Origin: Caballeronia terrestris
GTDB taxonomy: Bacteria; Pseudomonadota; Gammaproteobacteria; Burkholderiales; Burkholderiaceae
Length of the DNA stretch: 64,000 bases
Direction of reading: 5' to 3'
Assembly: GCF_001544515.1 (NCBI RefSeq)
Contig: NZ_FCOL02000009.1
Span: 124,001 to 188,000 of the forward strand
Shown: in pieces, positions 35,257 to 58,125 of the stretch
How positions within the stretch are numbered: the stretch's first letter is position 1
Layout of the letters: each line of letters starts with the position of its first letter
Notes under the pieces: generated by a model
The model's input: only the letters and a program-made list of their open reading frames with translations
What the model was told of the DNA's origin: nothing
Database searches by the model: none
Position numbers and translations under genes: made by a program

Positions 35257-36282
35257 TCAGGGCGCCAGGCTGAAATCGCGTGAAAGCAGCGTTGTATAGG
35301 CGCGTTCGAGTGCCTGAAGATCGGTCGAGCGTGCGCTCGCCTGGATGCCGTCGAGGCCCGGCAGCGGCACGCTCACCGCGTGGCAGTTTGCGTAGTCGCG
35401 GGCTCGCATCGACGGCGGGATCGTCGTGAAGAAGCCGGTTGTCGGTACGTCGAAGCCGGCTGCGACGTGCAGCGCGGCCGTGTCGGACGTGACGACGTAC
35501 CGCGCGTGCTTGATCCACGCGAGGAAATCGGCCGTATCGGGCGCGAGTGATGCGACGTCGGTGTAGTGCGGGTGATCGACCTTGGCGAAGCCTGCAACCG
35601 GTACGCCGAACTCGCGCCATAGACGATCGACGAGTCGCGCATGCATCGATGGCGGGATGCTTCGGACAGGCGTGGTCGCGTTGGGGCAGAAGAGCACATA
35701 GCTGCCTTGTTCGCTCTCAGGCAGCGGCAGTGTCTCCAACCAGCGATTGCGCTTATCGTCAGAAGGAATATCCGACGGCGCCACGCCGAGCGCCCACAAA
35801 AAGAAGTCGATCATCGGCAGCGTGGCGAACGCGGGCCAGAAGAGATGATTGCCGATGTCGATTTTCAGGTCGCCTTGCGGGAGCGAATCGAGCGCGACGG
35901 GCAGGTCGACCATCGTCCCCAACGCCGGCGCGGCCAGTTCATAGAGACGCTGAACGTAGCGCGGCGCACGCGCCGGCCGATACAGCGTGATGCCGAGCGA
36001 CGGATGGCGCTTCCTGATCGCGAAAAGCGCGGTAAGTCCGATGATCGAATCGCCGAGCGTCACGCCCATGCCGTTGATGACATGTAGGTTGCGTTGCGAG
36101 GCGTAATCACAAGCGAAAGCGGCGATTCCCGCGTTGAGGACCGCCGGAAGTGGTCGAAAACCGGAAGTGAGCGCATCGGCGACTTCAAGGTCGTAAGGCG
36201 CGACGATCTCGCCATCCGCCGACAAAAGCGAACCCGCGTGCGTCAACGCGGAAACTTCATCGAGCGTATTGGGCTGTGCCAT
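35257..36282 (-). CDS. Glycosyltransferase family 9 (heptosyltransferase-like)
   Basis: 341 residues. GT-B fold with NGMGVTLGDSIIGLTALFAIRKRHPSLGITLY at the N-terminal side and the ADP-heptose-type donor region VTSDTAALHVAAGFDVPTTGFFTTIPP (normally S-N-D-S-G-x-x-H-x-A-A). The Asp-Thr-Ala change from the usual D-S/T-G is notable. GT9 enzymes transfer heptose or related sugars onto LPS core or surface glycans. It is divergent from the DPA operon and co-directional with the LysR gene 102 nt downstream. Translation could also begin at 36315. Confidence 0.8.
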   Translation of the reverse strand: MAQPNTLDEVSALTHAGSLLSADGEIVAPYDLEVADALTSGFRPLPAVLNAGIAAFACDYASQRNLHVINGMGVTLGDSIIGLTALFAIRKRHPSLGITLYRPARAPRYVQRLYELAAPALGTMVDLPVALDSLPQGDLKIDIGNHLFWPAFATLPMIDFFLWALGVAPSDIPSDDKRNRWLETLPLPESEQGSYVLFCPNATTPVRSIPPSMHARLVDRLWREFGVPVAGFAKVDHPHYTDVASLAPDTADFLAWIKHARYVVTSDTAALHVAAGFDVPTTGFFTTIPPSMRARDYANCHAVSVPLPGLDGIQASARSTDLQALERAYTTLLSRDFSLAP

Positions 36283-36618
36283 CTCGTTTAAGCCGAATCG
36301 GCAAATTTGTCGCATCGAACGGGCAATTATGCTCCCGGAACGGTAAATCAGCGTGAAAAGCCCTTCGATTTGCGCCCTTCCGCCGAAACCGCGCGCGATT
36401 TTTAATGACGCGAAATTTGATCGCTTACGGTGCATGAGTGTCGCGGGAGTTTCGTATGTTGGTTGACATACGGCCCAGTTCGCTTCTTTGTGTCCAACCG
36501 CACCCAGGGAGCCAATTCGCACAGCCACAATGGCCCGTGCTTTCCTAAGCGCAATTAAACGCACACGCCCGTACGATTTTCAGTCCGATCTCATTCTTCA
36601 CACTTAACGGCGGATCGA
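36283..36618. promoter_or_regulatory. Divergent promoter region before the first DPA operon
   Basis: 336 bp with no gene. CGTATGT-TGGTTG-ACATACG (36455-36474) is a 7-bp inverted repeat. It contains TTGACA (36465-36470) pointing toward the DPA operon, but the expected -10 is poor. Operator/-35 overlap is possible. Confidence 0.4.
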
Positions 36619-38040
36619 ATGAGCAAACCCATCGTCGTCGATCTGGACGGCACGCTGATTCACTCCGACGTTCTTGTCGAGAGCGGCTTTGCCTTCCTGA
36701 AGTCCACGCCGCTGCGCTTCTATCAGCCGTTCCAATGGCTCGCGAACGGCGGCAAGTCCGCGCTCAAGACGCGGCTCGCGGAGAACGCCGACATCGACGT
36801 CACCGTGCTGCCCTACGACAAGCAGGTGATCGACTGGCTGAGCCACGAGCGCGCCGCCGGGCGCACGCTCGCGCTCGCGACCGCGAGCCACGAAAGCTTC
36901 GCGCGCCGCATCGCCGAGCATCTCGGCATCTTCGACAAGGTGTTCGCCACCAACGAGCATACGAACCTGTCGGCTAACGCCAAGCGCGATACGCTTGTCG
37001 CGGAGTACGGTGAGAAAGGCTTCGACTACGTCGGCAACTCGCATGACGATGTGTCCGTGTGGCAGTCGGCGGATCGCGCGTATGTGGTGAATCCGCATTC
37101 GGGCGTCGAGCGCGCGGCGCGCAAGCAGGGCAACGTTGAACGCGTGTTCGAGAACCGGCCGCCGTCGCTGAAGGTGTGGGCCAAGTCGCTACGTCTGCAT
37201 CAGTGGCTGAAGAATGTGCTGATCTTCGTGCCGCTGCTCGCGGGGCATCACGTCGCGGAATTGCCACTCGTCGTGATGGCGCTGATCGCGTTTCTTGCGT
37301 TCGGGCTCTGCGCGTCGAGCGTGTATCTGCTCAACGATCTCGTCGATCTCGACGACGACCGGCATCATCCCGTCAAGCGCAATCGGCCGCTCGCGTCCGG
37401 CGCGATGCCGCTGATATGGGGCGTGCTGCTCTTCCCGATACTGCTGATCGCGGCGTTCACGCTCGCCGGAGTTTTCCTGCCGTGGCGTTTTTGCGCCGTG
37501 CTGGCCGGGTACTACGTGGTGACGCTCGCCTATTCGCTCGCGTTCAAGAAGCAAGTGATGATCGACGTAGTGCTTCTGGCGGCGCTCTATACGGCGCGTA
37601 TCATCGCAGGCGCGGCGGCGATCAGCGTCAACCTGACGTTCTGGCTGCTCGCGTTCTCGATGTTCCTTTTCCTGAGCCTCGCGCTCGTCAAGCGCTACGC
37701 GGAGATTCATCTGATGCAGAAGGAAGGCCGCACCTCGGCACGCGGACGCGGTTATCTCGCAAGCGACCTGCCGCTGCTCGCCTCGCTCGGGGCGTCGTCC
37801 GGCTACTTGTCGGTGATGGTGCTCGCGCTCTACGTGCAGGATGTGAACACGGCGAGACTCTACAGCCATCCGCATGCGATCTGGCTCGTGTGTCCGCTGC
37901 TGCTCTACTGGATCAGCCGGACGTGGATCATCACACATCGCGGCAACATGAAGGACGATCCGATCGTGTTCGCCGCCCGCGACGTGACGAGCCTCATCGT
38001 GGTTGCGTTGTGCGGCGTCGTTTTCTGGTTGGCGACCTGA
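36619..38040 (+). CDS. HAD phosphatase-UbiA prenyltransferase fusion (decaprenyl-phosphate phosphoribosyltransferase type), copy 1
   Basis: 473 residues in two domains. Residues 1-180 are a HAD phosphatase with DLDGTLI (D-x-D nucleophile), LATASHESF, AKRD and GNSHDDVSV. Residues about 190-473 are a UbiA-type membrane prenyltransferase with the Mg-binding SVYLLNDLVDLDDDRHHP (N-D-x-x-D) and RTSARGRGYLASDLP. The mycobacterial homologue of the second domain (Rv3806c) attaches phosphoribose from PRPP to decaprenyl phosphate. The fused HAD domain could remove the 5-phosphate. It starts a tight operon with dprE1, dprE2 and a gtrA gene. A diverged copy is at 61410-62834. Confidence 0.88.
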   Translation: MSKPIVVDLDGTLIHSDVLVESGFAFLKSTPLRFYQPFQWLANGGKSALKTRLAENADIDVTVLPYDKQVIDWLSHERAAGRTLALATASHESFARRIAEHLGIFDKVFATNEHTNLSANAKRDTLVAEYGEKGFDYVGNSHDDVSVWQSADRAYVVNPHSGVERAARKQGNVERVFENRPPSLKVWAKSLRLHQWLKNVLIFVPLLAGHHVAELPLVVMALIAFLAFGLCASSVYLLNDLVDLDDDRHHPVKRNRPLASGAMPLIWGVLLFPILLIAAFTLAGVFLPWRFCAVLAGYYVVTLAYSLAFKKQVMIDVVLLAALYTARIIAGAAAISVNLTFWLLAFSMFLFLSLALVKRYAEIHLMQKEGRTSARGRGYLASDLPLLASLGASSGYLSVMVLALYVQDVNTARLYSHPHAIWLVCPLLLYWISRTWIITHRGNMKDDPIVFAARDVTSLIVVALCGVVFWLAT

Positions 38041-38043
38041 TCG

Positions 38044-39360
38044 ATGGCAGCACTGCTTTCGTGGGGCCGCTACCCGAATTTTCCTCAAGAGCCGCATCCG
38101 ATTCCCTGGCGCGACATGGCCGCGCGAAACTGGCACCGCGTGCATGCCGAGCACGGCACGACGCTCGCGTTCGGCAACGGCCGCAGCTACGGCGACAGTT
38201 GCCTCGCGGCATCGGGACACGTCGTGCAGACGCTGCCGCTCGACAGGATCATCGAAGCCGACTGGACGACCGGCGTGTTGCGCGCCGAGCCGGGCATCAC
38301 GCTCGAGCAGATTCTGCAGGTCGCGATTCCGCGCGGCTGGATGCTGCCCGTCACGCCGGGAACCAAGTACGCGACGCTCGGCGGCGCCATCGCGAACGAC
38401 GTCCACGGCAAGAACCATCACGTGCGCGGTACATTCGGCCGGCACGTACGCGCGTTCGCGCTCGCGCGCAGCGACGGCAGCCAGAGCGAATGCACGCCGT
38501 CGTTCAATGAGGAACTCTTCGGCGCGACGATTGGCGGCCTCGGGCTGACTGGCCTGATCCTCTGGGCCGAAATTCAGTTGATGCCGATCCGTTCGAGTTC
38601 CATCGACGTGACGAGCATCCGCTTCGCCAACGTCGACGAGTTTTTCGAGCTCGCCACGCAACTCGACGCCGAGCATGAATACAGCGTCGCGTGGGTCGAT
38701 TGCCTGAGCCGCGGCGCAGCGCTCGGGCGCGGCATTTTCATGGTGGGCGATCACGCGAAGCACGGGCCCCTCGAAGTCGCGCGGCGCCGCAAGCGAACGA
38801 TGCCGCTGACGCCGCCGGTCTCGCTCGTCAACAACCTCACGCTGCGCGCATTCAACGAGCTTTACTACCGGCGGCAACGCAAGCCGTCGGTGCAGTCGCG
38901 GGTCGGCTACGACGGCTATTTCTATCCGCTCGACAGCCTGCTCGAATGGAACCGCATCTACGGGCGGCCGGGCTTTCAACAATATCAGTGCGTGGTGCCC
39001 GCCGCCACCGCGCGCGATTCGACGCGCGCGATCCTGGAGCGGATCTCGGCGAGCGGCACGGGATCGTTCCTCGCCGTGCTCAAGCGCTGCGGCGATGTGA
39101 AGTCGCCGGGGCTGCTGTCGTTTCCGATCGAAGGGACGTCGCTCGCGCTCGATTTTCCGCAGCAGGAATTGCGCAACGGGCCGCTCTTCAAACAACTCGA
39201 CGCGATCGTCCGCGAAGCCGGTGGGCGACTCTATCCGGCGAAGGACGCGCACATGAACGCCGCCGATTTTCGCGCGGCTTATCCTCAGTGGCAGCAACTC
39301 GAGTCGCTGCGCGACCCGGCGATGCTGTCGCGCTTTTGGGAACGCATGATCCAGTCATGA
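38044..39360 (+). CDS. dprE1: Decaprenylphosphoryl-beta-D-ribose 2'-oxidase (DprE1-like), copy 1
   Basis: 438 residues of the FAD-linked oxidase family. FAD-binding motifs are FGNGRSYGDSCLAASG (about 43-58) and TPGTKYATLGGAIANDVHGKNHH. The substrate domain ends RLYPAKDAHM, whose Lys (about 398) aligns with the catalytic Lys418 of Mycobacterium tuberculosis DprE1. The position of its drug-targeted Cys387 (NICVDFP) is Ala here (SLALDFP). The enzyme oxidises C2 of polyprenyl-phosphoryl ribose. ATG is 3 nt after the HAD-UbiA stop, and the 3' end overlaps dprE2 by 4 nt. Confidence 0.9.
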   Translation: MAALLSWGRYPNFPQEPHPIPWRDMAARNWHRVHAEHGTTLAFGNGRSYGDSCLAASGHVVQTLPLDRIIEADWTTGVLRAEPGITLEQILQVAIPRGWMLPVTPGTKYATLGGAIANDVHGKNHHVRGTFGRHVRAFALARSDGSQSECTPSFNEELFGATIGGLGLTGLILWAEIQLMPIRSSSIDVTSIRFANVDEFFELATQLDAEHEYSVAWVDCLSRGAALGRGIFMVGDHAKHGPLEVARRRKRTMPLTPPVSLVNNLTLRAFNELYYRRQRKPSVQSRVGYDGYFYPLDSLLEWNRIYGRPGFQQYQCVVPAATARDSTRAILERISASGTGSFLAVLKRCGDVKSPGLLSFPIEGTSLALDFPQQELRNGPLFKQLDAIVREAGGRLYPAKDAHMNAADFRAAYPQWQQLESLRDPAMLSRFWERMIQS

Positions 39361-40094
39361 AGAATATCGTCATCGTGGGCGCCACATCCGCCATCGCCAT
39401 CGCATGCGCCCGCCAGTGGGCGGAGCAAGGCGCGCGCTTTTTCCTCGTCGCGCGCAACGGGGAGCGGCTCGAACAGGTCGCCGCAGATCTGAGCGCGCGC
39501 GGCGCCGTCGCCACCTGCCATCACCTCGACATCGACAAGCTCGACGAGCATGCGTCGATCGTCCAGCGCAGCGTCGCGGAATTGCAGTCGATCGACATTC
39601 TGCTCGTCGCGCCCGGCACGCTGCCGGACCAGCAGGCGTGCCAGAACGATGCGGCGGTCGCCGTGCGTGAGTTCAATACGAATGCGGTATCGGTGATCGC
39701 GCTGCTGACGGTCTACGCGAACGTGCTGGAGGCGCAGCGGCATGGCGTGCTGGCGGTAATTTCGTCGGTGGCGGGGGATCGCGGGCGGCCGTCGAATTAT
39801 CTTTATGGCAGCGCGAAGGCTGCACTGTCGGCGTTTCTCGAAGGATTGCGCGCGCGGCTGTTCAAGGTGAACGTGCATGTGCTGACGATCAAGCCGGGCT
39901 TCGTCGCTACCCCGATGACGGCTGGCTTGCCGCTGCCGGGGCCGCTCGTTGCGACCGCGGAGAAGGTCGCGCAGGACATCGTCAAGGCGATCGACAAGAA
40001 AACGAACGTCGTTTATACCCCGTGGTTCTGGTGGGGCATCATGTCGATCATCCGCAACGTGCCGCAGTTCCTGTTCAAGCGGGCGTCGCTATGA
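39357..40094 (+). CDS. dprE2: Decaprenylphosphoryl-2-keto-ribose reductase (DprE2-like SDR)
   Basis: 245-residue short-chain dehydrogenase. NADH-binding IVGATSAIAIACARQWAEQGA at the N-terminus (the G-x-x-S-x-I variant of DprE2 rather than G-x-x-x-G-x-G), catalytic VISSVAG (Ser) and YLYGSAKAALSAFLEG (Y-x-x-x-K). The C-terminal tail is basic and hydrophobic (WWGIMSIIRNVPQFLFKRASL), suiting a lipid-linked substrate. It would reduce the keto intermediate from DprE1 to the D-arabinose donor. ATGA overlaps on both sides (dprE1 and gtrA) show translational coupling. Confidence 0.9.
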   Translation: MKNIVIVGATSAIAIACARQWAEQGARFFLVARNGERLEQVAADLSARGAVATCHHLDIDKLDEHASIVQRSVAELQSIDILLVAPGTLPDQQACQNDAAVAVREFNTNAVSVIALLTVYANVLEAQRHGVLAVISSVAGDRGRPSNYLYGSAKAALSAFLEGLRARLFKVNVHVLTIKPGFVATPMTAGLPLPGPLVATAEKVAQDIVKAIDKKTNVVYTPWFWWGIMSIIRNVPQFLFKRASL

Positions 40095-40519
40095 GTCAAG
40101 TTCAACCGATGCCGCCTTCGATGACGCGCTCGCGACTCGTCGTTCTCTATTCGATCTTCGCCGCGATTTCGATCGCCGCGAATCTCGGCTCGCAGAAGCT
40201 CTTCGTGATGGCCGCGCATATCCCATATGCGGTGGCGATTTCGGTGTTGGTCGGGACGGCCGTGGGGCTAGCCGTCAAGTTCTTCCTCGACAAGTTCTGG
40301 ATCTTCCGCTTCGAGCATCGCGATATCGCGCACGGGATACAGAGCTTCATCCTCTATACCGCGATGGGCGGCGCGACGACGCTGATTTTCTGGGGCTTCG
40401 AATTCGGCGCCGACCATGTGTTCGGCACGGAAGCCGCGCGGCTTACCGGGGGCGGCGTGGGGCTCGTGATCGGATATATCGCCAAGTATTGGCTGGACAA
40501 GAAATTTGTTTTCGCTTGA
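40091..40519 (+). CDS. GtrA-family membrane protein
   Basis: 142 residues with four hydrophobic segments (LVVLYSIFAAISIAANLG, YAVAISVLVGTAVGLAVKFFLDKFWIF, FILYTAMGGATTLIFWGF, GGGVGLVIGYIAKYWLDKKFVF). The repeated K-F/Y-x-L-D-K-x-[FW]-x-F pattern is typical of GtrA proteins. In mycobacteria the GtrA protein Rv3789 is encoded next to dprE1/dprE2 and acts in DPA-dependent arabinosylation. This gene overlaps dprE2 by 4 nt and ends the operon. Flipping or presentation of the lipid-linked arabinose is the likely role. Confidence 0.88.
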   Translation: MSQVQPMPPSMTRSRLVVLYSIFAAISIAANLGSQKLFVMAAHIPYAVAISVLVGTAVGLAVKFFLDKFWIFRFEHRDIAHGIQSFILYTAMGGATTLIFWGFEFGADHVFGTEAARLTGGGVGLVIGYIAKYWLDKKFVFA

Positions 40520-40531: not shown

Positions 40532-42418
40532 TCAACCGCCGCCAATCGCTTGCTTCACCGAAGGCACACTCTGCAAGCTGGGCGGCACCGCCGTCTGGTA
40601 CTCCGGTACCCATCTACGCAAATCCCGCCGCACTTCCTCATCCGGCAGCACGCGATGCTGCATCAGCCACGGCAGCAATTCATCGAGAAAGTGATCCGGC
40701 ACTTCACGCGCCCGCGCGATCCGCAGTTTCGGATGCGGCGTGCGCGTGGTCGTTTCATCGTCGGCGAGGAGTTCTTCGTATAACTTCTCGCCCGGCCGCA
40801 GCCCCGTGAACACGATCCGGATCTGCTCTTCCGAAAAGCCATAAAGGCGAATCAGATCGCGCGCCAGATCGACGATCTTCACCGGCTGCCCCATGTCGAG
40901 GATGAAGATCTCGCCGCCATGCCCCATGCTCGACGCCTGCAGAACCAACTGCGCCGCCTCGGGAATCGTCATGAAGAAACGCGTGATCTCGGGATGCGTA
41001 ACCGTCACCGGCCCGCCCTTCGCGATCTGCTGCTGGAACTTCGGAATCACGCTGCCCGCGCTGCCGAGCACGTTGCCGAAGCGCACCGTCTCGAACTGCG
41101 TGCGCGGCGCCGATTGCTGGAGCGCCTGACACGCCATCTCCGCGAGGCGCTTGCTGGCGCCCATCACGTTGGTTGGGTTGACGGCCTTGTCGGTGGAAAT
41201 CAGCACGAAATGGCGCACGTCGTGGCGAATGGCCGCGCGCGCGACGCGCAGCGTGCCGAGCACGTTGTTGCGCACTGCCTGCCACGCGTTCTGCTCTTCC
41301 ATCAGCGGCACGTGCTTGTACGCGGCCGCGTGGAAGACGATATGCGGCGTGAAGCGCGACATCGTCTGGTCGAGCAGCAGAGAATCCTTCGCGTCGCCGA
41401 TCACCGGGATCACCGACAGCCCTGAAAACTTCTCGTGCAACTCTTCGGTGAGCCGGTACATCGCGAATTCGCTTTGATCGTAGGCGATCAACTGCGCCGG
41501 CGAAAATCGCAGGATCTGGCGACACAGTTCGGAACCGATCGCCCCCCCCGCACCCGTCACCATCACGACGCGGCCGTGCAGCAGCGCCTCGACATGCGGC
41601 ATGTCGATTTTAACCGGCTCGCGGCCGAGCAAATCTTCCAGGTCGATCTGGCGCACGCGGGAGAGGAACGCCTGGCCCTGCGTGAGCGGCGTGAGCGCCG
41701 GCAAAACCATCGCCTTGACGCCCGCGCGCACGCAAAGCGTCGCGACGCGCCGTTGCGCCTCCACCGATGCCGACGGAATCGCGATGATCGCGTAATCGGT
41801 TTTCAGTTGATCGGCCCAGTGCGGCAGCTCGCTGATCGAGCCGAGCACCTTGTGTCCGAGGACTTCTCGGCCGCGCTTGGCGGGATCGTCGTCCAAGAGG
41901 CCGACGAGACGCCATTCGCTCGAACGCGCCAGTTCGCGCACGAGGCTCGCCGCCGCGTTACCGGCGCCGAGCAGAATCACGGGCTTACCCTGCCCGACCA
42001 GGCCGCCGTACAAGTAGAACTCCTTCGTCGCGCGATAAAGCGCGCGCGCGCCGCCCATCGCGAGGAACAGCAGGATCGGCCCGACGATGAGAACCGAGCG
42101 GGGAATGATGGGGATCGGCTGCGCCATGACCGCGCCGACCATCACGATCAGCGCGCCCGCGCCGACCGCCTTCGAGATACGCATCAGGTCGGGCAGGCTC
42201 GCGAAGACCCACATGCCGCGATAGAGACCGAATACGCGAAATAGGATGCCGTAGACGGGGAGCACCCAGAGGAGCGCGTGCAGCGCGCTGGACTGGAAGT
42301 GAGGCGGCACCGTGCCGTTGAAGCGGATCAGATAGGCCGCGATCCACGTCCCCGCGACCGCGACGAGGTCGAATGCGAACGCGCCGCCCGATAGCCATGA
42401 AGCTTTGAATCGATTCAT
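40532..42418 (-). CDS. wbpM: WbpM/FlaA1-type nucleotide-sugar 4,6-dehydratase (membrane form)
   Basis: 628 residues. Four N-terminal membrane helices, a first Rossmann domain (PVILLGAGNAAASLVREL) and a second, catalytic one (VVMVTGAGGAIGSELCRQI). The active-site region LISTDKAVNPTNVMGASKRLAEM has Met in place of the usual Tyr of Y-x-x-x-K, diagnostic for this group. It converts UDP-GlcNAc to the 4-keto-6-deoxy sugar leading to QuiNAc or FucNAc in O-antigens. The start at 42418 follows the family; the sequence upstream is not similar. The gene is convergent with the DPA operon (12 nt between stops). Confidence 0.92.
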   Translation of the reverse strand: MNRFKASWLSGGAFAFDLVAVAGTWIAAYLIRFNGTVPPHFQSSALHALLWVLPVYGILFRVFGLYRGMWVFASLPDLMRISKAVGAGALIVMVGAVMAQPIPIIPRSVLIVGPILLFLAMGGARALYRATKEFYLYGGLVGQGKPVILLGAGNAAASLVRELARSSEWRLVGLLDDDPAKRGREVLGHKVLGSISELPHWADQLKTDYAIIAIPSASVEAQRRVATLCVRAGVKAMVLPALTPLTQGQAFLSRVRQIDLEDLLGREPVKIDMPHVEALLHGRVVMVTGAGGAIGSELCRQILRFSPAQLIAYDQSEFAMYRLTEELHEKFSGLSVIPVIGDAKDSLLLDQTMSRFTPHIVFHAAAYKHVPLMEEQNAWQAVRNNVLGTLRVARAAIRHDVRHFVLISTDKAVNPTNVMGASKRLAEMACQALQQSAPRTQFETVRFGNVLGSAGSVIPKFQQQIAKGGPVTVTHPEITRFFMTIPEAAQLVLQASSMGHGGEIFILDMGQPVKIVDLARDLIRLYGFSEEQIRIVFTGLRPGEKLYEELLADDETTTRTPHPKLRIARAREVPDHFLDELLPWLMQHRVLPDEEVRRDLRRWVPEYQTAVPPSLQSVPSVKQAIGGG

Positions 42419-42429
42419 CCGCGTGGACC

Positions 42430-43464
42430 TCAAGGTTGTTCGGAAGGACGGGACTGATGACGCCGCCAGGAAACATCGACGACCGCCCCCGCTGCCGCGA
42501 CCACAATTGCCCACCCTGCCACCGCGCACCACTGTCCGAGTGGCGAGAAGCCTAATGCTAGATTAGCAAGCAGTATGCCGACAAGCATCAGCAAATACCA
42601 CGCCAACGCGGTGCGCGCGTGGCCCATGCCGAAACGCACCATCCGCTGATAGTAATGCTCGCGGTGCGCCTGCCAAAACTTTTCCCCGCGTGCGAGGCGC
42701 CTCAACAACGTCACCGATGCATCGGCGATGAAGGGCGCGAACACGAGTGCCGGGAACCACACCGGCCAAGTGCCCTTCAACCAGCCCCAATAGCCGAGGG
42801 CCCCAGCCAGAAAGCCTAAGGGTATTGACCCCGAATCGCCAAGAAAAATCCGGGCCGGATGGAAATTGAAGAGCAGAAAACCCGCCGCCGCGCCCGCGAC
42901 GGCCGCGCTGGCAAGGCCGAGATCGATCTGCGGAACGGGTCCGGCGAGCGCCGCCGCCGCGTAGCCGCCGAAGCCGAACAGCGCCATGCCGCCCGCGAGG
43001 CCGTCGGCTCCGTCCATGAAGTTATAGAGATTTACGAGCCACAACATCAGGAATCCGACCGCCGCCAGCGCCCACCACGGCACCGGCGCAGGATTTAGCA
43101 CGATCAGCACGGCGACTGCCAGCAAATGCGCGGCGAAGCGGACTCTGGCCGGGAGGCCGCGGCGGTCGTCGATCTGCGAGACCGCGGAGAGAAAGGCGGC
43201 GCCCGCGACGGCCAGCCACATCGACGGCGCGACGATCAGCATCGCGAGAACCGCGACCGGCACGATGCCCCAGCCGCCGATGCGCGGCGTCGGGCGCGTA
43301 TGCAGCGAACGGTCGTTCGGGATATCAGTAGCGAGGCGCCATGCGAGGCCGGTCTTGAGCAGCACGGCCAGGATGAGCGCAGAAGCGACGAGCGCGAGCG
43401 CCGCGACGACAGCGGCGGAGGTCCACGGTGAATCGATCAGGAACAGCAACGGCGGGCGGGTCAT
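42430..43464 (-). CDS. wbpL: WbpL/WecA-type polyprenyl-phosphate N-acetylaminosugar-1-phosphate transferase
   Basis: 344 residues with about 10 membrane segments. MraY/WecA motifs are SQIDDRRGLPARVRF (D-D), NLYNFMDGADGLAGG (N-x-x-N-x-x-D-G), IFLGDSGSIPLGF and AHREHYYQRMVRFG (H-x-x-H-Y-Y-Q). The enzyme starts an O-antigen-type repeat by moving an N-acetyl-aminosugar phosphate to the lipid carrier. The start at 43464 has CTGGGAA upstream. It is encoded between wbpM and a wbpV-like gene, the usual order in Pseudomonas and Burkholderia O-antigen loci. This is a second initiating transferase, distinct from WcaJ. Confidence 0.92.
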   Translation of the reverse strand: MTRPPLLFLIDSPWTSAAVVAALALVASALILAVLLKTGLAWRLATDIPNDRSLHTRPTPRIGGWGIVPVAVLAMLIVAPSMWLAVAGAAFLSAVSQIDDRRGLPARVRFAAHLLAVAVLIVLNPAPVPWWALAAVGFLMLWLVNLYNFMDGADGLAGGMALFGFGGYAAAALAGPVPQIDLGLASAAVAGAAAGFLLFNFHPARIFLGDSGSIPLGFLAGALGYWGWLKGTWPVWFPALVFAPFIADASVTLLRRLARGEKFWQAHREHYYQRMVRFGMGHARTALAWYLLMLVGILLANLALGFSPLGQWCAVAGWAIVVAAAGAVVDVSWRRHQSRPSEQP

Positions 43465-43522
43465 TTCCCAGTATTTGTATGGTGGATGATCGTGTCGGCT
43501 GGGCCGATCTTTAGCTTGTTTG

Positions 43523-44482
43523 CTAGCGCGTGCCCCGGCGCGTCGCGAGGAACCAGCGCGCCGTGGCGGCAAGTCCCGCGTCGAGCGAATCCGGAGGGCG
43601 CCAGCCTAGCACATCTCGAATATACGTCGAATCGACACGAAGGCTGCCTGTAAGGCGATCGATCTGCGCGGTCTTGCCGGTTAGCCGGCCGGCGAATTTC
43701 AGGATATCGACCGGCATGGGCATTAGGCGCGCCGGCCTGCCGAGATGGCGGCCGAGGCTGCGCGCAAGGTCGGCGACGCTTGGGTCGTCGCCGTCGGTGA
43801 CGTGGAAGGTTTGGCCGGCCGCGCGCGGATGCGTCGCAGCGAGGGCGAGCGCGTTTGCCAGGTTGTCGACGTAGCAGAGGCTTCGTCGCGCTGTGACGGA
43901 GCCGATCGGCAGCGGGATGCCCTTCGCGATCGCGTTCATCAGGCTCAGGAAGTTAGCGCGCACGTCCGGGCCGTAGACGAGCGGCGGACGCACGATCACG
44001 ATTTCGAGGCCCGTGCGGGCGCCGAATTCCAGTAGTTTCACTTCGGCTTCGGCTTTTGAGACGCCGTAGGGGTCGGGCGGGCGGCGCTCATCGGTTTCCT
44101 TTAGCGGGCGGCCGGGGTCCAGTTCGGCGACCGCCTTGATGCTGCTCACGTAGACGAAGCGCGTGGCGCCGGCACGGACGGCGGCATCGGCGGCTCGCAG
44201 CGAGCCTTCGACGTTTGTCGCGCGGAAGGCGGCGAGCGGGTCGGTGTCGACGTCGCGCATTACGTGGACGCGGGCCGCGGGGTGGATTACGGCTTGGACG
44301 TCGGCGAAGGTTTCACGGGTGATGGCGTCAAGCGATGCGATGCGTTTTGTTTCGACGCCGGGTTCGCAGGTCGTGTTCGGGCGAGCGATGGCGGTGACCG
44401 GCGTGCCCTGCTCCATCAGCATGCGCGTCAGCGCCCTTCCGACGAAACCGTTCGCGCCCGTGATCGCAATGCGGCCGGTCAT
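43523..44482 (-). CDS. wbpV: WbpV/WreQ-like NAD-dependent sugar epimerase/reductase
   Basis: 319-residue extended SDR. NAD-binding IAITGANGFVGRALTRML, catalytic FVYVSSIKAV (Ser), DPYGVSKAEAEVKLLE (Y-x-x-x-K) and the sugar-nucleotide region VYGPDVRANFLSLM. Neighbours WbpM and WbpL suggest it acts on the 4-keto intermediate or epimerises the 6-deoxy-HexNAc, giving UDP-QuiNAc or UDP-FucNAc. Which one cannot be told by eye. ATG at 44482 overlaps the upstream GT2 stop by 4 nt and has GGAAG 8 nt before it; a GTG at 44488 is an alternative. Confidence 0.85.
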   Translation of the reverse strand: MTGRIAITGANGFVGRALTRMLMEQGTPVTAIARPNTTCEPGVETKRIASLDAITRETFADVQAVIHPAARVHVMRDVDTDPLAAFRATNVEGSLRAADAAVRAGATRFVYVSSIKAVAELDPGRPLKETDERRPPDPYGVSKAEAEVKLLEFGARTGLEIVIVRPPLVYGPDVRANFLSLMNAIAKGIPLPIGSVTARRSLCYVDNLANALALAATHPRAAGQTFHVTDGDDPSVADLARSLGRHLGRPARLMPMPVDILKFAGRLTGKTAQIDRLTGSLRVDSTYIRDVLGWRPPDSLDAGLAATARWFLATRRGTR

Positions 44483-45432
44483 AGCCACTTCCAGCCGAAA
44501 CGGTTGAAAAACCTGTACGCGGAGGTCACGAAAAGCTTGATGTGCGTCCAGCCTTTGCGTGCAGCATCGCCGCCGTGGTGCAACACGCGCACCGATGGAA
44601 CGTACGCGACGCGCGCGATTTCGTGCGTGCGCAGGCTCAGGTCGTAGTCCTCGAAATAGAGGAAGTAGCGCGGGTCGAAGCCACCGAGCTTTTTCAGGAC
44701 GTCGGTGCGGAAAAGCATGAAGCAGCCGCTGACGATGGGTGGGTCCCAGACTACCTCTTCGTCGCCGATTACGTCGCGCATTTCGTAGCGGGCGAGACGG
44801 TTCGCGAATGGGGCGCGCAGGCGCGAAGGGAGGAAGCCGCGGGCGAAGAGGTCGAAGACGGTGGGGTAGCGGCGGCAGAGGAATTGCTGGCTGCCGTCGT
44901 CTTCGAGAATCAGCGGGGAAAGGACACCGACTTCGGGGTGCGCGTCCATGAAGGCGATTGCTTGAACGAGCGCGTCGCTTTCCAGTTCGATGTCCGGGTT
45001 TAGGATCAGGTGGTAGCGGCTCGATGTGCGATCGATGGCGAGATTGTGGCCTCGGCCGTAGCCGACGTTGCCCTGGCCTTCGATGACGTTCGTTTGCAGC
45101 CGGGCTTCGTTGGTGAGCTGCGACCAGTCGATGCGTTCATCCGTGCCGTTGTTGATGAGGTACAGCGGCGCGGACGTGGCTTGATTCGACTTTAGGAAGC
45201 GATCCAGCGCAGTGTCGAGCGTATGCAACGTACGCTCCAGCATCGCACGATGCGGCCGGTAGACGACGAGAGATACGCTTATCAATCGAGCTGAGCCTGC
45301 GTTGACGGATTGTGGGTTCAACTGCATCCTTGAAGACGGAATTTCTGGGCTTGCCGCGGTCGTTGTCTGGACGACGAAAGCCGACATTTTCGCTGAAATG
45401 AACCGCTCGTAGCAAACAATTAGAGGGTTCAT
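44479..45432 (-). CDS. Glycosyltransferase family 2 (rhamnosyltransferase-like)
   Basis: Up to 317 residues. GT-A fold of the WbbL type: ISVSLVVYRPHRAMLERTL, GNVGYGRGHNLAI, HLILNPDIELESDAL (the D-x-E/D donor-metal site) and GCFMLFRTDVLKKLGGFDPRYFLYFEDYDLSLR (E-D-x-D-L). It probably adds rhamnose or a similar sugar to the O-antigen repeat. The start is uncertain: ATGs at 45432, 45387 and 45327 are possible. The family-like sequence begins only after MQLNPQSVNAG, so 45327 may be the true start. Last gene before the low-coding island. Confidence 0.85.
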   Translation of the reverse strand: MNPLIVCYERFISAKMSAFVVQTTTAASPEIPSSRMQLNPQSVNAGSARLISVSLVVYRPHRAMLERTLHTLDTALDRFLKSNQATSAPLYLINNGTDERIDWSQLTNEARLQTNVIEGQGNVGYGRGHNLAIDRTSSRYHLILNPDIELESDALVQAIAFMDAHPEVGVLSPLILEDDGSQQFLCRRYPTVFDLFARGFLPSRLRAPFANRLARYEMRDVIGDEEVVWDPPIVSGCFMLFRTDVLKKLGGFDPRYFLYFEDYDLSLRTHEIARVAYVPSVRVLHHGGDAARKGWTHIKLFVTSAYRFFNRFGWKWL

Positions 45433-46690
45433 GCCGACGCGGTAAGTCGTCGCCGCAAAAGACGGCGTGAGAATCCGCGTGATATTCCATTTCGCGCTTG
45501 TCTCCAGGCGTTGCTCGAGATCGCCGAGCTCTACCTCAGACGAGCGCTTAGAATCGTGACAAGCCGCGATTGCCCTATTGAGACATCGGACTAACGCATG
45601 GACTTCCGCTCGATCGTGCCAGAAGCGATCGCCGCGGCTGGGACATCATGTGAAACGAAGGACGTGCGTCTAGCGGCGCGTATGAAGAAAAGCAGGAAAT
45701 TTCGGAAAATGCACTCATCCGGCGGTTCAACTGGCGCGGAGAGCAGCTTTACGCGGAAGCAACTGATGTAGTGCAATATTCGCAAGTGTGGCGGAGCGGA
45801 TCTCGCTGATCTTGCGTCATTAGGCGCTGGACTGAAGCCAGGTCGGTAGATTCCCCGCTATTCTCTTCTTGCTTTAAGCCAAGCGTTCAAACGGTGGCAT
45901 AATAAAGAGGTTATTGGGGCATTGAGGAAACGGCCCCACCTAGATAGCAACACAGCCGTAGTTAATCGCGTTGAACAGAAACAGTCAGTTCTTCCACCGG
46001 AATAATGAGGTCGGACCAAGCCATTATGCGCTTCTCTGTGCAATCGATGCCTGATGCGCTCGAAAACTAGATAGAGGGGAGTCGGTAAGCACGTTGAGAG
46101 GCAATGCACGCGTGCAATCGTGGAAGCACGAGCAAACAGCTTCCCCGACTTTGCACACTCCACCCCGCACACAAATTCACCATTTAGAAAAAGAGTACAG
46201 CGCCGATCTATTGACGCGCTTGGGCGAGGCCGCTACCCTCCTCGACGCCAGCGGAGCCTGAGTGCTACCGAACACGCGCCTGTTATGGCTGCGAGCCTTC
46301 AACGAAAACAAGCAGTGACTGAGGATACGTCCGCGCGGACGCTTATTACATATCCCCTCGGATTCGTCTCGGCCAAAAGATATTGCTAACGTCACCGGTA
46401 ATGGCAGATGCCACAATTCCAGCGCCGCATTCCTATGAGGTGCGGTTCCACCAACCGACTAATCGATCGACAAGCCCTCGTCATCGCGCAACTAATCCGG
46501 TGGGTAGTCAATTGGAGTCAACAAATAACCCACTTCAGCGCGGAATTGGTGTCGGCGTGATTGGAATGCGCCACAGAAACGGATCCGTCAACGTCACGGA
46601 TACGAGCCGCAACAGTTTATTAATCAAACCAACTTACAGCCATGATCCCGCCGATAGCATCCGGACGTCCAGCGGCAACTTCATCGCGCA
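45433..46690. other. Gene-poor start of the accessory island
   Basis: 1.26 kb with no gene I can support. Base composition becomes less GC-rich than in the flanking operons. A 57-codon plus-strand frame at 45598-45771 (begins MDFRSIVPEAIAAAG) could be a decayed fragment. Nothing else is recognisable. Confidence 0.4.
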
Positions 46691-47657
46691 CTACCTCGCT
46701 AGCCGTGCGATCTGCGACTTGACGTGTAACCATATCGACAACTGACGATCGAGATACTTTCGAAACTTTGTGTCGTCGTTTCGTGCACGGCGAGTAAAAG
46801 TATGCGCTGTTGCATGCCGCCAATGGCCGAAAACAAGCACCGTATCGTTTCGCTTTAGCGGACACAACCAATTCGGTTGATTGGTCCATACCGTGGCGCA
46901 AGTGCGCTCTCCTACCGTCGAGTCAAGAGCATATGACTGCGCCGATGACGGCTCGAAGTTCAAAACATACAGCAAGCGCCCATGAGTTTCTATGGTCTCA
47001 ACGTTAGACACTCGGCCCACAAGGGCGATGGGAAAAGAGGCCGCAGTCTGAACTAGCCAACGATAAGCCGCAAGGAACCGCTCTTCTTCGTAATAGAAGT
47101 CTGCCCAATTCACCGACATCCCATTGAAGACGAATTCTAGACGGTCTCGAAGAAAGAGATTGCTCGAGCACAACGCGCCCAATTGAATAACACGCTTAGC
47201 CGCATTGATGTATGCCGACAGGAAACAGCGAGAGTCGCTTGAAAAAAACGCGCCGTCGCTTCTTCCCGCCTTTTCTACTTCGCGAAAAATCGCTGAACGA
47301 GTTATGAGTTAGACGAATGTCGAAATTACGCATATCATCAATCGCAAGGAGGCGAAAACGATATTGGCCTCGTTCGAGGGCTTGCAATAGACCAAGCGAA
47401 CGACGAGCGATGACTTTGAGTTGCTCCTCGACGTTGAACATGCAGCGCTCGTTATGCGCCGCGTTCGGAAGCAAGCGGAAATATGCCTTGACTAGGTAGG
47501 TCCTTCCTCTACATTCGCGTGCGTGCTGCGGAACGTAGCTCACAGGCGTACCGCAATACATACATCTCAACGACGGAGCCACGGGAAGAAAGTCGATCGT
47601 CTCGGCAGAGACTTCTTGTCCGTCCATTGTTGCAGCTACCCACATCTTTGCAGCCAT
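46691..47657 (-). pseudogene. Zinc-finger protein gene split by a frameshift in a T7 run
   Basis: The first part starts at 47657 (MAAKMWVAATMDGQ) with GGAGG upstream and has zinc-ligand-like CMYC, HAREC and HNERC spacings, vaguely like CoiA-type N-termini. It hits a stop at 47196. Shifting frame by +1 at the seven-T homopolymer on the minus strand (47242-47248) restores a continuous protein. That reads SSDSRCFLSAYINAAKRVIQLG, then LEFVFNGMSVNWADFYYEEERFLAAYRWLV, to 46691. The restored product would be about 320 residues. A one-base insertion, a sequencing error or transcriptional slippage could explain it. The family is not recognised. Confidence 0.6.
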
Positions 47658-48524
47658 CTCCTTCCCTCCTTTTTTGTTTGCGCGGCTTTGACTATCGGGA
47701 CCACTTGACCAAACCCTCAATCTCTTACCCAAATGTGTTTGCTCCGGCGCGAGGCAATTGGGTCTCAAAAACCATGCGCACCACGAGGCGCTCATCTGAA
47801 CGACTTTCAGGGTAGGAGAAGTCGCCGGCGAGGCCGCGACGGCGAGGCCGCGACGGAGAGATTTGCCTATCAACCTTGAAAAGATATGCTCCAAGCCTTG
47901 CGCTTTTCTTCTCCGCGCGATACTGACTGTCACGATAGGCGTCGGCTCACGGCTGCACGGCTCCGATATCCTTGCCGGTCATCAGGGTGGCAGTTACACA
48001 CGCAACATGCGCATGCCGCTTTTTCAACAACGACGATATGATGTCTCGGGTACCGGGCGTGCATCCGCTCTCGAAAGTCGAACTGCCTGGAGTTTTCTAT
48101 CCATCCTTCCCGTCGGCCACACAAGCGTAGGTGACTGCGGCGTTGAGTGACTCGCCTCGCCGACGCGCGATCAACGAAGAAATGGCACCATCAAAAGGCG
48201 TCGCGTCGGCCGATTGCCCACGGCGCGGCAGCGTCCCAAAGGTCGAGGTGTCGAAAGACTATCCGCTTGAGGGAGGGCCCTTCTGCCAACGCGGGCCAGG
48301 ACGCGAATACGGTGCGCGCAGTAAGCGGATATGAGCGAGTGCCCAGACGAGTGAACCCGCTAGTTGGCCACAGCCACTCGTCAATTGATGTTTTGTGCAA
48401 ACCACGCCAGCCGGCGTGGTTTGCACGATCAACGTCTTTCAGCGCGGACACTGGTTTGGCATCGACCAGATGGCCGGATTCAACGCCGAATCGAGCCAAT
48501 AGAGGCAACGTTCTCGATGCGCAA
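47658..48524. other. Non-coding stretch with a short tandem repeat
   Basis: No supportable gene. It contains two exact tandem copies of a 14-bp unit, GGCGAGGCCGCGAC (47827-47854). Otherwise nothing is recognised. Confidence 0.4.
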
Positions 48525-48998
48525 TCATGTCGATTCGTGGTCACCTGCAAAGCACAGGTGTCCGGTGACAAACAGAGCGACAGATGCGGCGCAGAGCAAC
48601 ACTGTTTCGACGATCGCGCGTGTGTCCCAGTTCTTGGTCGACTGAACGAGGTAGCACGCGCCGATCACCGAGAAGGCGCTCAGCATGTGGGCAAAGCGCC
48701 GGTTCAGGCGCCGTTGAGCGGCATTGGGTGATGCGACAGACTGCAGCCCCCTGACCAAACGTTCCGCAAAGCCAAGCCTCGAGCCCAGGACAAGCTCGGC
48801 TTCCGGCGTGCCTTCCACGCGATAGGTGACGCCGTCTACCGTAACGCTAGTCGACGTGCGGCGCTCGCTCCGCTCGAGCTCGGCAAGCAACGCAGTCAAG
48901 CGCGGCGGCAGAATAAGCCGGGATGATGCCCGAACGACAACGCGGTCCGTCAAGATCAACCCGCACGCATAGCGAACTTCCAGTACGGCAATTTTCAT
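48525..48998 (-). CDS. Small two-helix membrane protein, hypothetical
   Basis: 157 residues, preceded by a near-perfect AAGGAGG. The N-terminal 95 residues are soluble and mixed alpha/beta (MKIAVLEVRYACGLILTDRVVVRASSRLILPPRL). A basic stretch (NAAQRRLNRRFAHML) precedes two hydrophobic segments (SAFSVIGACYLVQ and IVETVLLCAASVALFVTGHLCFA). It is probably a tail-anchored or two-pass inner-membrane protein. The family is not recognised. It stands alone in the island, its good ribosome-binding site being the main support. Confidence 0.65.
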   Translation of the reverse strand: MKIAVLEVRYACGLILTDRVVVRASSRLILPPRLTALLAELERSERRTSTSVTVDGVTYRVEGTPEAELVLGSRLGFAERLVRGLQSVASPNAAQRRLNRRFAHMLSAFSVIGACYLVQSTKNWDTRAIVETVLLCAASVALFVTGHLCFAGDHEST

Positions 48999-49694
48999 AA
49001 AGCCTCCTTGGCTGAGAAAGTAGCGGCTTTCGGCGATGTGCCGAAAGCAAGACTACGGTGGTGAAATAGAACAGCGGTGAATACGGCGGGACGCATTGCT
49101 GGTCACGCAGTGGGGGCCGGCGTGGTGCCGAGATGCTGAGAACGGATCGACGAGCAACGTCCGGCGACCACGGGTACGCGGGCGTCGCCGTCTAGCAGAT
49201 ATCGGTGTCCGTGCGAGCCAAAGCGTTTTGTCCCTGACGAAGCCGCGCTTGTCTTGCACGAAAACACGAAGGACGACCCGGCTTGAAGACCAGTGCTTGA
49301 ATACAACGATGAACAACGATGGCCTGTCGCTCAGTGAGCTCGCCTGCGACCCGGTACAGCGATCTCCCTGAGGGGCCGGTATCGAAGAAGTGGCACGCGC
49401 ACGTCAGCCGTGCGTTGCTAGATCGATGCGTAGATACGCGGTGGGTCGAACTAATATAAAGCGCCCATCGGACGGTTTTGCGCTGGAAAGCTTCGAAAAA
49501 ACGCCGTCTTTTCAGTTTCATCGCAGATGTCGATGTCACAGTGCGGGTGGCTCGAGCGGCAGTTGTCGTTCGGGGGCTATACGGCTAGGTTGGCCCGACG
49601 CCGTGCCGCACACAACAGTCGAGGATTCACTCGGGTTTTCACGTGACGGCCGCAGCGCTGCGATACAACGAAACAGCGACTGCGGGCGGCGATA
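48999..49694. other. Region without a convincing gene
   Basis: About 700 bp. Several overlapping open frames exist on the minus strand, for example one beginning MFIVVFKHWSSSRVVLRVFV at 49316, but none has both a ribosome-binding site and family-like sequence. Confidence 0.4.
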
Positions 49695-50354
49695 TCACGG
49701 GCGCGAGCGCCTGTGTGAGCAAGACCAGTCGATATGCGAAGCGAGGGTATCCGCATCCAAATAGCGCCGATGCGTTGTGCGAAAACGGTTCAACCTCGTG
49801 CGCAAGAAGTAGTGCAAGTCCGGCAACGTCAAGATGCCATCAGGCACAGTCGGATGAAGACTGCAGCCCGCTTCGCCGAAAACGGCGATACTCTCGACCG
49901 GACATTCCTGTTGAGATAGCACCAAGCGCAAGTGCCGCACGGCCGGCTTCGCTCGACGCAGCGGCGACGTATGAACCGTCACGCCGCCGAGGTCGTCGAC
50001 GACGGCGAGTTCATCTTCGCTGGTCCACGGCTTGACGAGGCCCGTCCAGTCGAACCGGTTCACGACGAAGACGCCAAACGGCGTGATTGCGAGGCAATCA
50101 ACCAGCGTTATTGGGTTCTTGGTGCCCGGTGCGTGTTCGAGTTCGATTGCAGGGCGCAGATGCACCCGGCCATCGCACGCACGCTCAAAGATGGGCACAA
50201 TGCGCATTAGCAACGCGCGGCTCACGCGTTGACGGTTGCCCGCCCCGTTGGTCGCTTCTGTGCTGCGGGAATGGCTGAAACTATTGTCAGCGGCGGAGGT
50301 CGTCTCATTCAACAGATCGTGTGTCGACATTGCGTCTTGATCGTGCTTTTTCAT
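49695..50354 (-). CDS. NERD-like domain protein (paralogue A)
   Basis: 219 residues. A variable polar N-terminus of about 55 residues is followed by a NERD-like core: ITLVDCLAITPFGVFVVNRFDW, PAVRHLRLVLSQQECPVESIAVFGEAGC and LPDLHYFLRTRL. Nuclease-related (NERD) domains normally show D-x-x-x-V...G-V-F-V-I-E-x-K; here the Asp is kept but the Glu-x-Lys is replaced by N-R-F. Catalysis may therefore be lost. GAGGG lies 6 nt before the ATG. A diverged paralogue lies at 55409-56065 with the same core order. Confidence 0.7.
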   Translation of the reverse strand: MKKHDQDAMSTHDLLNETTSAADNSFSHSRSTEATNGAGNRQRVSRALLMRIVPIFERACDGRVHLRPAIELEHAPGTKNPITLVDCLAITPFGVFVVNRFDWTGLVKPWTSEDELAVVDDLGGVTVHTSPLRRAKPAVRHLRLVLSQQECPVESIAVFGEAGCSLHPTVPDGILTLPDLHYFLRTRLNRFRTTHRRYLDADTLASHIDWSCSHRRSRP

Positions 50355-50555
50355 TCTGTCCCTCGGCTCTTGTTAATAGAATGGACTTTCAAGGAAGCTC
50401 ATCGCTCGCCGCTTGCGAGCTCATCTGCAAGTTAGGCCGCCTACCGCCGGACCACGTCTACTGGCGCAGCTCGACCGGGCATCATTTAGTGACGCGAGCG
50501 GTAATAGGCGAACATGAAGATGCGTAGGTGCGCTAGGAAGCACCGCCGGGGGAAC

Positions 50556-50987
50556 CTACGCGCACTGACACTCATGCGGCTCACTCTCCAGCAGCAACCT
50601 TCGCAATGCCTTGATGCGTTGCTGCTGAGCCGGAATGAGGCAAGTCTTCCGCTCGATTCGCTCTAGCCGTATGAGCCAATAGGACTGAGGCAGGTACGCA
50701 GGTATAGACGGGCCATGAGCACCAGCGACGTGACGAATCACCGCTTCAAGATGTCGGATTTCCGCATCCGCGCACCGAGCGGGCAGTTGCACCGTCGGGG
50801 ACTGCTCGTTGAGGGCAGGCGGACTTTTCGATCGCGCTAGGTCTTGCCGGAGGGAATGCTTGGGCGCTGCACGCACTGGCGTGAGAGTGCGTTCGCGTTC
50901 GGACGTGTGTTCACTCGAACCGCGAATATGGGTGGGTCTCGCTCGTTGCGGGGAATGCGCGTGGCACAAACGTTTCTGTATTGGCAT
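50556..50987 (-). CDS. Hypothetical protein, helical C-terminal half
   Basis: 143 residues. The first 70 are basic and low-complexity and may be untranslated. The C-terminal half (CADAEIRHLEAVIRHVAG, YWLIRLERIERKTCLIPAQQQRIKALRRLLLES) is a plausible amphipathic helical protein. No good ribosome-binding site is seen before the ATG at 50987, so the real start may be internal. No family recognised. It ends in Cys-x-Cys-Ala. Confidence 0.45.
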   Translation of the reverse strand: MPIQKRLCHAHSPQRARPTHIRGSSEHTSERERTLTPVRAAPKHSLRQDLARSKSPPALNEQSPTVQLPARCADAEIRHLEAVIRHVAGAHGPSIPAYLPQSYWLIRLERIERKTCLIPAQQQRIKALRRLLLESEPHECQCA

Positions 50988-56633: not shown

Positions 56634-56649
56634 CGCTATCCGGATAGCG
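56634..56649. repeat. Perfect 16-bp palindrome CGCTATCCGGATAGCG
   Basis: Exact self-complementary 16-mer. A 15/16 copy (CGCTATCCGGATAACG) is at 58046-58061. The two flank a small gene in the island. Confidence 0.75.
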
Positions 56650-57198: not shown

Positions 57199-57218
57199 GG
57201 AATTATCATGATAATTCC
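57199..57218. repeat. Perfect 20-bp palindrome GGAATTATCATGATAATTCC
   Basis: Exact 20-mer inverted repeat with no loop, AT-rich in a GC-rich setting. About 10 bp further on, GAAAG...CTTTC elements recall the repeats upstream of the ParB-like gene. Candidate protein-binding site. Confidence 0.75.
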
Positions 57219-58045: not shown

Positions 58046-58061
58046 CGCTATCCGGATAACG
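58046..58061. repeat. Second copy of the 16-bp palindrome (one mismatch)
   Basis: CGCTATCCGGATAACG, differing from the palindrome at 56634-56649 at one base. Confidence 0.7.
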
Positions 58062-58125
58062 TCCCTCGACGTTCCGGGGCCAAGACAACCGCTTGATTCT
58101 CCTGGTAAATTAGCCTGTTACAAAA

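Follow-up and report, generated by a model that had tools for sequence, protein, structure and literature searches.

Beside its O-antigen genes, Caballeronia terrestris carries an operon resembling the one that makes the D-arabinose donor of mycobacteria, which raises the question of which surface structure receives the sugar in this Gram-negative bacterium, and through which enzyme. The operon (operon 1, 36619-40519) lies in a 64,000-nucleotide stretch, here called the window, of contig NZ_FCOL02000009.1 (positions 124,001 to 188,000; assembly GCF_001544515.1). Its four genes encode a HAD-UbiA fusion, a DprE1-type flavin adenine dinucleotide (FAD) oxidase, a DprE2-type short-chain dehydrogenase/reductase (SDR) and a GtrA protein; such genes are called DPA genes below, after decaprenylphosphoryl-D-arabinose (DPA). 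We found a second HAD-UbiA and DprE1 in the same window, from 61410, overlooked by an earlier note on this DNA. They begin operon 2, which runs past the window end into a gene for a GT-C-like glycosyltransferase. Both operons probably make polyprenyl-phospho-D-arabinofuranose (D-Araf), which GtrA would flip and the GT-C-like protein would transfer to O-antigen.

All four frames of operon 1 are open on the + strand in the sequence and in the open reading frame lists, and the coupling described by the earlier note holds to the nucleotide: a 3-nt gap (38041-38043) separates UbiA from DprE1, and ATGA overlaps join DprE1 to DprE2 (39357) and DprE2 to GtrA (40091). Hidden Markov model searches bear out its family assignments as well. 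Pfam scores exceed the cut-offs for UbiA (70 bits), HAD (33), FAD_binding_4 (62), adh_short (120) and GtrA (29), and in NCBIfam the HAD-UbiA protein scores 676 bits for PRK08238 (cut-off 351) and GtrA 166 bits for gtrA_1 (cut-off 50). Against all of PDB, UbiA matched only decaprenyl-phosphate phosphoribosyltransferase (DPPR synthase; 8j8j at E 3.7e-29, and 8j8k), the former from M. tuberculosis (Kelly et al., 2024, PMC11127046). The nine top PDB sequences for DprE1 are all DprE1 (best 7e-73; next other family 1e-6), and DprE2 comes first for its counterpart (1.4e-27; next 2.3e-16). This ranking rules out other FAD oxidase or SDR subfamilies; the best alignments to non-DPA subfamilies, for which the earlier note had allowed, did not turn up. 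The best-matching DprE entries are, we assume, M. tuberculosis proteins.

The N, D, D, D (NDxxDxxxD) and R, E (RxxE) residues of UbiA, which were tested in ORF15 (PMC11127046), are legible in the translations of both operons. Pattern searches found the HAD motif DLDGT, and KRYAE, in both HAD-UbiA copies, and DVHGKNHH and AKDA in both DprE1 copies; the SDR Ser-Tyr-Lys residues are kept in both DprE2 copies (S136, Y150 and K154 in operon 1). Both DprE1 copies read LALDFP where the best PDB match (21gq) has NICVDFP, with Ala in place of Cys; this Cys we take to be the residue attacked by benzothiazinones in M. tuberculosis DprE1. DprE1 is a tuberculosis drug target, and natural homologues with this replacement are useful for comparison. 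The GtrA of operon 1 matched nothing in PDB. It is one of two gtrA_1 genes in the assembly (NF037976 search); in the whole-genome search PF04138 missed it and NF037976 recovered it. No promoter was found in a scan of 36200-36700, ahead of the operon. The gene set is not a chance arrangement, because four adjacent genes share three coupled junctions, stand under purifying selection (see below) and keep the order UbiA-DprE1-DprE2 in relatives.

Operon 2, recovered by a UbiA search of the strain's own assembly, has the same 3-nt UbiA/DprE1 gap. The two differ in content: operon 1 has GtrA and no transferase, whereas operon 2 has the GT-C-like gene and no GtrA. The earlier note's remark that no GT-C is visible in the window is literally true, but the second operon contains a GT-C-like gene that begins 0.9 kb beyond the window. 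Both operons are under purifying selection: the ratio of nonsynonymous to synonymous substitution rates (dN/dS) is 0.05-0.28 in the 11 of 12 gene pairs that allowed scoring, the twelfth, a GT-C pair, being saturated, and 0.18 for the GT-C-like gene in the unsaturated one of its two pairs. Protein identity between the operons is 72-78% and their nearest relatives differ, so that a recent duplication of operon 1 cannot account for operon 2. Operon 2 is a mosaic ending at an IS66 element, the C-terminal end of whose transposase (PF13817) stands at the contig end. Its nucleotide identity to genome G001 (L039) is 96-99% over the first 800 bases, then 80-84% and then 68-88%, with a recombination breakpoint near 62200, inside UbiA. 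In the trees its UbiA groups with G001 (support 0.98), while for its DprE1 and DprE2 the surrounding branches are mostly from Paraburkholderia-type loci, with weak supports (0.31-0.70 and 0.63-0.88).

Judged by sequence, the GT-C-like protein represents a new, unclassified family tied to DPA genes. With its putative GT-C fold, it is the probable enzyme for linking the sugar to the cell surface. Family-mean hydropathy gives about 10 membrane segments and a soluble C-terminal part. P41, D44, W46, Q67, H71-R72, R345-Y346 and other residues are invariant in 16 members, that of C. terrestris included, and D44 (D44xW) lies about 10 residues past the first hydrophobic segment. The general plan of GT-C enzymes likewise places a catalytic Asp close to the first helix, and an R-Y pair (R349, Y350) is present in the GT136 founder (PMC11127046). 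This likeness may serve as a lead, not as proof of membership. Identity of the operon 2 protein is 59% to a Paraburkholderia acidicola member, 57% to one of P. fungorum and 42-43% to the Caballeronia copy of L054.

Among 398 sampled genomes of the strain's own family, 22 have this GT-C and 70 have DprE1. Both occur in 19 of the 22 (Fisher p 5e-13, though p values overstate independence because the sampled genomes are related), and DprE1 is present without this GT-C in 51 of the other 376. The three GT-C genomes without DprE1 (G110, G119 and G192) hold distant members. DPA genes lie near the GT-C gene in 17 of 20 named loci, the other three being on contigs of 3.9-5.9 kb, and in 14 of 19 further GT-C stretches, two of the 14 repeating named loci (L124 = L104, L139 = L108). 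Three of the five further stretches without DPA genes carry second GT-C copies, with DprE1 elsewhere in the genome (G226, G392 and G368). A GT-C search of phages gave no match.

O-antigen arabinosylation is supported by synteny of the DPA genes with a GT2-WbpV-WbpL-WbpM block, which upholds the association proposed by the earlier note. The block lies between operons 1 and 2 (Table 1), and DPA genes stand beside it in 13 of 16 DprE1-bearing Caballeronia genomes, a count that includes the strain's own genome and G057, whose contig ends before WbpM. As to the remaining three, the block is about 20 kb off in G035, G001 offers a 9.5-kb contig only, and G015 has no block within 20 kb. In G035 the usual place is left with no more than fragments of UbiA and DprE2 (L055:5202-5944), and a complete cassette follows some 20 kb away. 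DPA genes also adjoin the block in 10 of the 14 DPA-bearing stretches of the further GT-C set. Operon 2 occupies the usual DPA position, now split from GT2 by a 16-kb lower-GC stretch with an integrase. Operon 1 is in an unusual position, between WbpM and GT9; in 11 of 11 relative loci holding both, these are at most 50 bases apart, GT9 directly behind WbpM.

The acceptor for the same donor could instead be a protein, for instance a type IV pilin like the target of TfpW in P. paraeruginosa, or another envelope glycan. D-Araf on pilins is documented in P. paraeruginosa (PMC12369383, PMC11841053), and elsewhere in the C. terrestris genome (L156, contig C116, 8.9 kb) two GT-C-like genes, for membrane proteins of 627 and 659 aa that both contain LPDDAAFFLRYA, flank the second gtrA_1 gene. 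These are possible other users of the DPA donor; they matched nothing in Pfam or NCBIfam, and no donor genes lie beside them on C116. However, in both Caballeronia and Paraburkholderia-type loci it is with O-antigen genes that the DPA genes are syntenic, and no pilin is found among the family-named neighbours (no search aimed at pilin genes was made), so that we consider an acceptor other than O-antigen quite improbable.

Table 1. Positions of the DPA operons, their neighbors and a related gene triad (window numbering unless a locus is named).
Feature	Position	Strand	Remarks
Operon 1, HAD-UbiA	36619..38040	+	473 aa; polyprenyl-phosphate phosphoribosyltransferase, N-terminal phosphatase domain
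Operon 1, DprE1-type FAD oxidase	38044..39360	+	438 aa
Operon 1, DprE2-type SDR reductase	39357..40094	+	245 aa
Operon 1, GtrA	40091..40519	+	142 aa; small membrane protein, proposed flippase
Operon 2, HAD-UbiA	61410..62834	+	474 aa; PRK08238 684 bits; 76% identical to operon 1 UbiA
Operon 2, DprE1	62838..64154 (window part 62838..64000)	+	73% identical to operon 1 DprE1
Operon 2, DprE2 (past window end)	64151-64891		ATGA overlap with DprE1
Operon 2, GT-C-like gene (past window end)	64888-66606		572 aa; GTG start overlaps DprE2 stop (GTGA)
Second membrane protein, after GT-C-like gene	66718 on (L006:6718-7402)		WAEDG stretch; breaks off near contig end
GT9 glycosyltransferase	35257..36564	-	Glyco_transf_9; true start probably inside the open reading frame
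WbpM-like UDP-sugar 4,6-dehydratase	40532..42532	-	Polysacc_synt_2 401 bits
WbpL/WecA-like initiating glycosyl-phosphate transferase	42430..43572	-	Glycos_transf_4 96 bits
WbpV-like SDR epimerase/reductase	43523..44488	-	Epimerase 126 bits
GT2 glycosyltransferase	44479..45432	-	Glycos_transf_2 24.9 bits (cut-off 23.3); synteny, adjoins DPA genes in relatives
Lower-GC, probably mobile stretch between GT2 and operon 2	~45500..61400 (rough bounds)		Integrase 58550-59830, ParB-HTH, NERD-domain proteins
Conserved SDR (~315 aa)-FAD (PRK07233)-GtrA triad near DPA genes	L105:11798-14458, L054:10452-13133, L104, L107, L125-L135, L152, L153		

If both operons feed arabinose to the O-antigen, as we prefer, UbiA would transfer ribose-5-phosphate from phosphoribosyl pyrophosphate (PRPP) to undecaprenyl phosphate, the HAD domain would remove the 5'-phosphate from polyprenyl-P-ribose-5-P, and oxidation by DprE1 and reduction by DprE2 at C2 would turn ribose into arabinose. 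GtrA would flip the arabinosyl lipid, and the GT-C-like protein would transfer arabinose to O-antigen in the periplasm. The donor-synthesis reactions are ascribed to both operons by analogy with published relatives: the HAD-UbiA relative ORF15 is biochemically characterised, and Araf systems go with DprE1/E2 (PMC11127046). For this strain we infer the flippase role, the GT-C fold and activity, the transfer of unmodified D-Araf and the O-antigen as its acceptor.

The system is a variant of the published three-component pentofuranose systems. Like those of Citrobacter youngae O1 and O2 (Kelly et al., 2024, PMC11127046), it has a HAD domain N-terminal to UbiA, PRPP as source, a lipid-linked pentofuranose, epimerase(s), a periplasmic GT-C (here predicted) and a place in an O-antigen locus, and the Araf-containing examples among the published systems have DprE1/E2 homologues. 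It differs from C. youngae in having GtrA instead of a MATE flippase, a DprE1/E2 pair where O2 has a single SDR, two donor operons in one locus, a GT-C-like protein that matched no Pfam or NCBIfam family and, in relatives, an extra FAD/SDR pair. PSPA7_6245-6251 and TfpW of P. paraeruginosa PA7 likewise combine Gram-negative D-Araf donor genes with a GT-C as user, but the target is pilin (PMC12369383); the UbiA of P. aeruginosa, unlike ours, lacks a HAD domain and relies on a separate phosphatase (PMC11127046). The UbiA, DprE1, DprE2 and small-transporter steps to DPA are shared with mycobacteria (PMC11127046). In mycobacteria, unlike here, HAD is not fused (Rv3807c is separate), the carrier is decaprenyl and the end product is cell-wall arabinan. 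We take DprE1/E2 to be Rv3790/Rv3791, and Rv3789 to be what is labelled GtrA in the mycobacterial set with Rv3806c. The term "mycobacterial-type" used by the earlier note calls for caution, given the HAD-UbiA fusion, which is as in the published Citrobacter enzyme, and DprE1 and DprE2, which stay below the NCBI equivalog cut-offs.

Several results weigh against this picture, beginning with those cut-offs: for NF053785 and NF053786, DprE1 of operon 1 reaches 369 of the 500 bits required and DprE2 180 of 250, so that neither can be filed as an equivalog member. The GT-C-like protein matched nothing in Pfam or NCBIfam, and a profile of 18 named relatives matched nothing in PDB up to E 1. Comparison by hhalign gave no convincing match to GT87 (probability 5%, E 0.008, 74 columns) or to a mixed alignment of WsfD-like and C116 proteins (probability 0.5%, E 0.13). 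The operon 1 GtrA is of another subfamily than the GtrA that accompanies the GT-C elsewhere. Just four of the 16 DprE1-bearing Caballeronia genomes hold this GT-C, the G001 copy being a fragment, so the others must use another transferase; WsfD-like proteins of L041 and L044 (76 and 79 bits, just below the NCBI cut-off of 80) could be substitutes. Finally, a strict tie of this UbiA to arabinose is contradicted by L052 (12742-14157) and L056 (5643-7058), where a UbiA sharing 74% identity with the operon 1 protein adjoins the O-antigen block without DprE1/E2, and L042 (5985-7400) has an extra UbiA copy close to the operon 1 protein (74%) with no DprE1/E2 directly behind.

Such copies would suit a role in ribofuranose modification, UbiA making polyprenyl-P-Ribf and the oxidase and SDR having some other role, as would the frequency in the genus of a related DprE-less HAD-UbiA type. 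Yet DprE1 and DprE2 are best matched by the solved DprE1-DprE2 pair and are coupled with UbiA twice, and the main DprE-less UbiA type is a separate clade, among the tree branches listed. A ribofuranose role is therefore highly improbable in our estimate.

Relatives with an extra FAD/SDR enzyme pair may transfer a further modified pentose. Of the 36 loci that combine the GT-C with DPA genes, 31 (28 of 33 distinct places, L043/L107, L104/L124 and L108/L139 being duplicates) also have a triad of SDR, FAD oxidoreductase and GtrA. The triad is missing from five: L006 (C. terrestris itself, at the contig end), L112 (14 kb) and three loci on contigs 4.8-6.4 kb long. In L105 the FAD protein is assigned to PRK07233 (565 bits, cut-off 252). 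Its gene (at least 67% identity) is present in 28 of the 398 family genomes, all with DprE1; three matches at 28-32% identity, two in DprE1 genomes and one (G367) in a genome without DprE1, were set aside as paralogues. One internal stop shows in nine of the 28 matches, and both of those checked (L039 and L043) have a 427-aa open frame. Outside the family, the gene was found in 6 of 51 DprE1-bearing genomes (identity 48-78%) and in none of 109 genomes without DprE1, taken in listing order; five of the six have it on the contig of DprE1, at a distance of 1.8-4.1 kb, and in G543 the two are on different contigs. DprE1 thus accompanies it in 34 of 34 genomes (28 and 6, the three paralogues set aside). 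The FAD gene is an addition to the DPA pathway and not part of it, because 45 of the 51 DprE1 genomes outside the family are without it.

Among the 70 DprE1-bearing family genomes, 18 have both GT-C and FAD gene, 10 the FAD gene only and 41 neither, and the single GT-C-only case is C. terrestris: an FAD gene search of its genome found none (best 27 bits; the SDR was not searched genome-wide). Since the GT-C is nearly always accompanied by FAD and SDR in relatives, the donor it normally uses may be something other than plain D-Araf; this too counts against the preferred reading. The GT-C might then use a further modified pentose, with operon 2 a decaying remnant in this strain and only operon 1 and another GT-C active, an explanation that overlaps with ours as to the donor and draws on the exceptional gene content just described and on the IS66 end behind operon 2. 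The UbiA, DprE1, DprE2 and GT-C genes of operon 2 are intact, however, with the low dN/dS values given above, and ORF12 of Citrobacter, a GT-C of GT136, is promiscuous for pentose (PMC11127046); we hold decay of operon 2 to be rather unlikely.

The conserved FAD/SDR pair itself suggests a further donor-modifying step. A tentative proposal, which we doubt somewhat more than we credit, is that the GT-C family serves DPA-derived donors, that SDR and FAD protein follow DprE1/E2 as another pair of oxidising and reducing enzymes and convert the D-arabinose lipid into another pentose, and that C. terrestris has reverted to plain arabinose. The product would, as a guess, be lyxose if the C3 epimer or L-xylose if the C4 epimer. 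L-xylose occurs in xanthomonad O-antigens; the word is absent from the papers listed by our literature search on this sugar. If the proposal is true, lipid-linked pentose synthesis in bacteria extends past arabinose. Several candidate epimerases or GT-Cs in more elaborate Xanthomonas and Bacillus systems stand unexplained in PMC11127046, and the FAD/SDR linkage makes a concrete enzymatic test possible.

DprE1 homologues (E <= 1e-40) were found in 54 of 398 sampled Pseudomonadota genomes, in 43 of 212 genera, besides the 70 of 398 in the strain's own family (its genome is counted in both samples). These counts overturn the earlier note's view that Gram-negative uses are few, and with it the notion that the genes are rare in Gram-negatives. 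A Rhodobacteraceae plasmid bears the whole cassette and a Burkholderia stagnalis plasmid the cassette without this GT-C; UbiA matches 84 plasmid records, and among the three inspected (H4, H5 and H17) there is one, H5, in which UbiA has no DprE neighbours. Although best known from mycobacteria, genes for the D-arabinose donor have a firm place in the surface-glycan loci of Burkholderiaceae.

That Gram-negatives have DPA donor genes was already known from the pilin arabinan of P. paraeruginosa and from the Araf systems (PMC11127046). Three things are new: a single O-antigen locus flanked by two such operons, an unclassified GT-C-like family, offered here as a candidate transferase family, and the conserved enzyme pair bound to DPA genes. 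We found no publication on any of these three in a search of mostly open literature, and the supplement of PMC11127046 may show such clusters. The literature search likewise listed no D-Araf O-antigen structure for Caballeronia, Paraburkholderia, Burkholderia or Stenotrophomonas, and a word search of the available text of a Caballeronia insecticola Tn-seq paper (PMC10809759) found neither UbiA nor O-antigen.

A second HAD-UbiA type (45-50% identity), with no DprE1 beside it, is common in Caballeronia (L057-L070, and the second UbiA of L056). Behind the L063 copy come genes for an EamA/SMR-like protein of 120 aa, which scores below the Pfam cut-offs, and for a GT87 protein (108 bits); the arrangement resembles a ribofuranose system whose flippase is of the SMR type.

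The stretch that separates GT2 from operon 2 has a GC fraction of 0.53-0.60, compared with 0.61-0.68 for almost all of the remaining window, and its integrase scores 48 bits for Integrase_1. At 16000-26000 lies what is presumably an exopolysaccharide cluster, to go by motifs of its translated proteins that recall GDP-mannose dehydratase, Wzc and ManC. Ahead of operon 2 is a diverged repeat (60083-60314 and 60622-60849), whose pieces of 37, 38 and 105 nt are 77-89% identical and about 538 nt apart.

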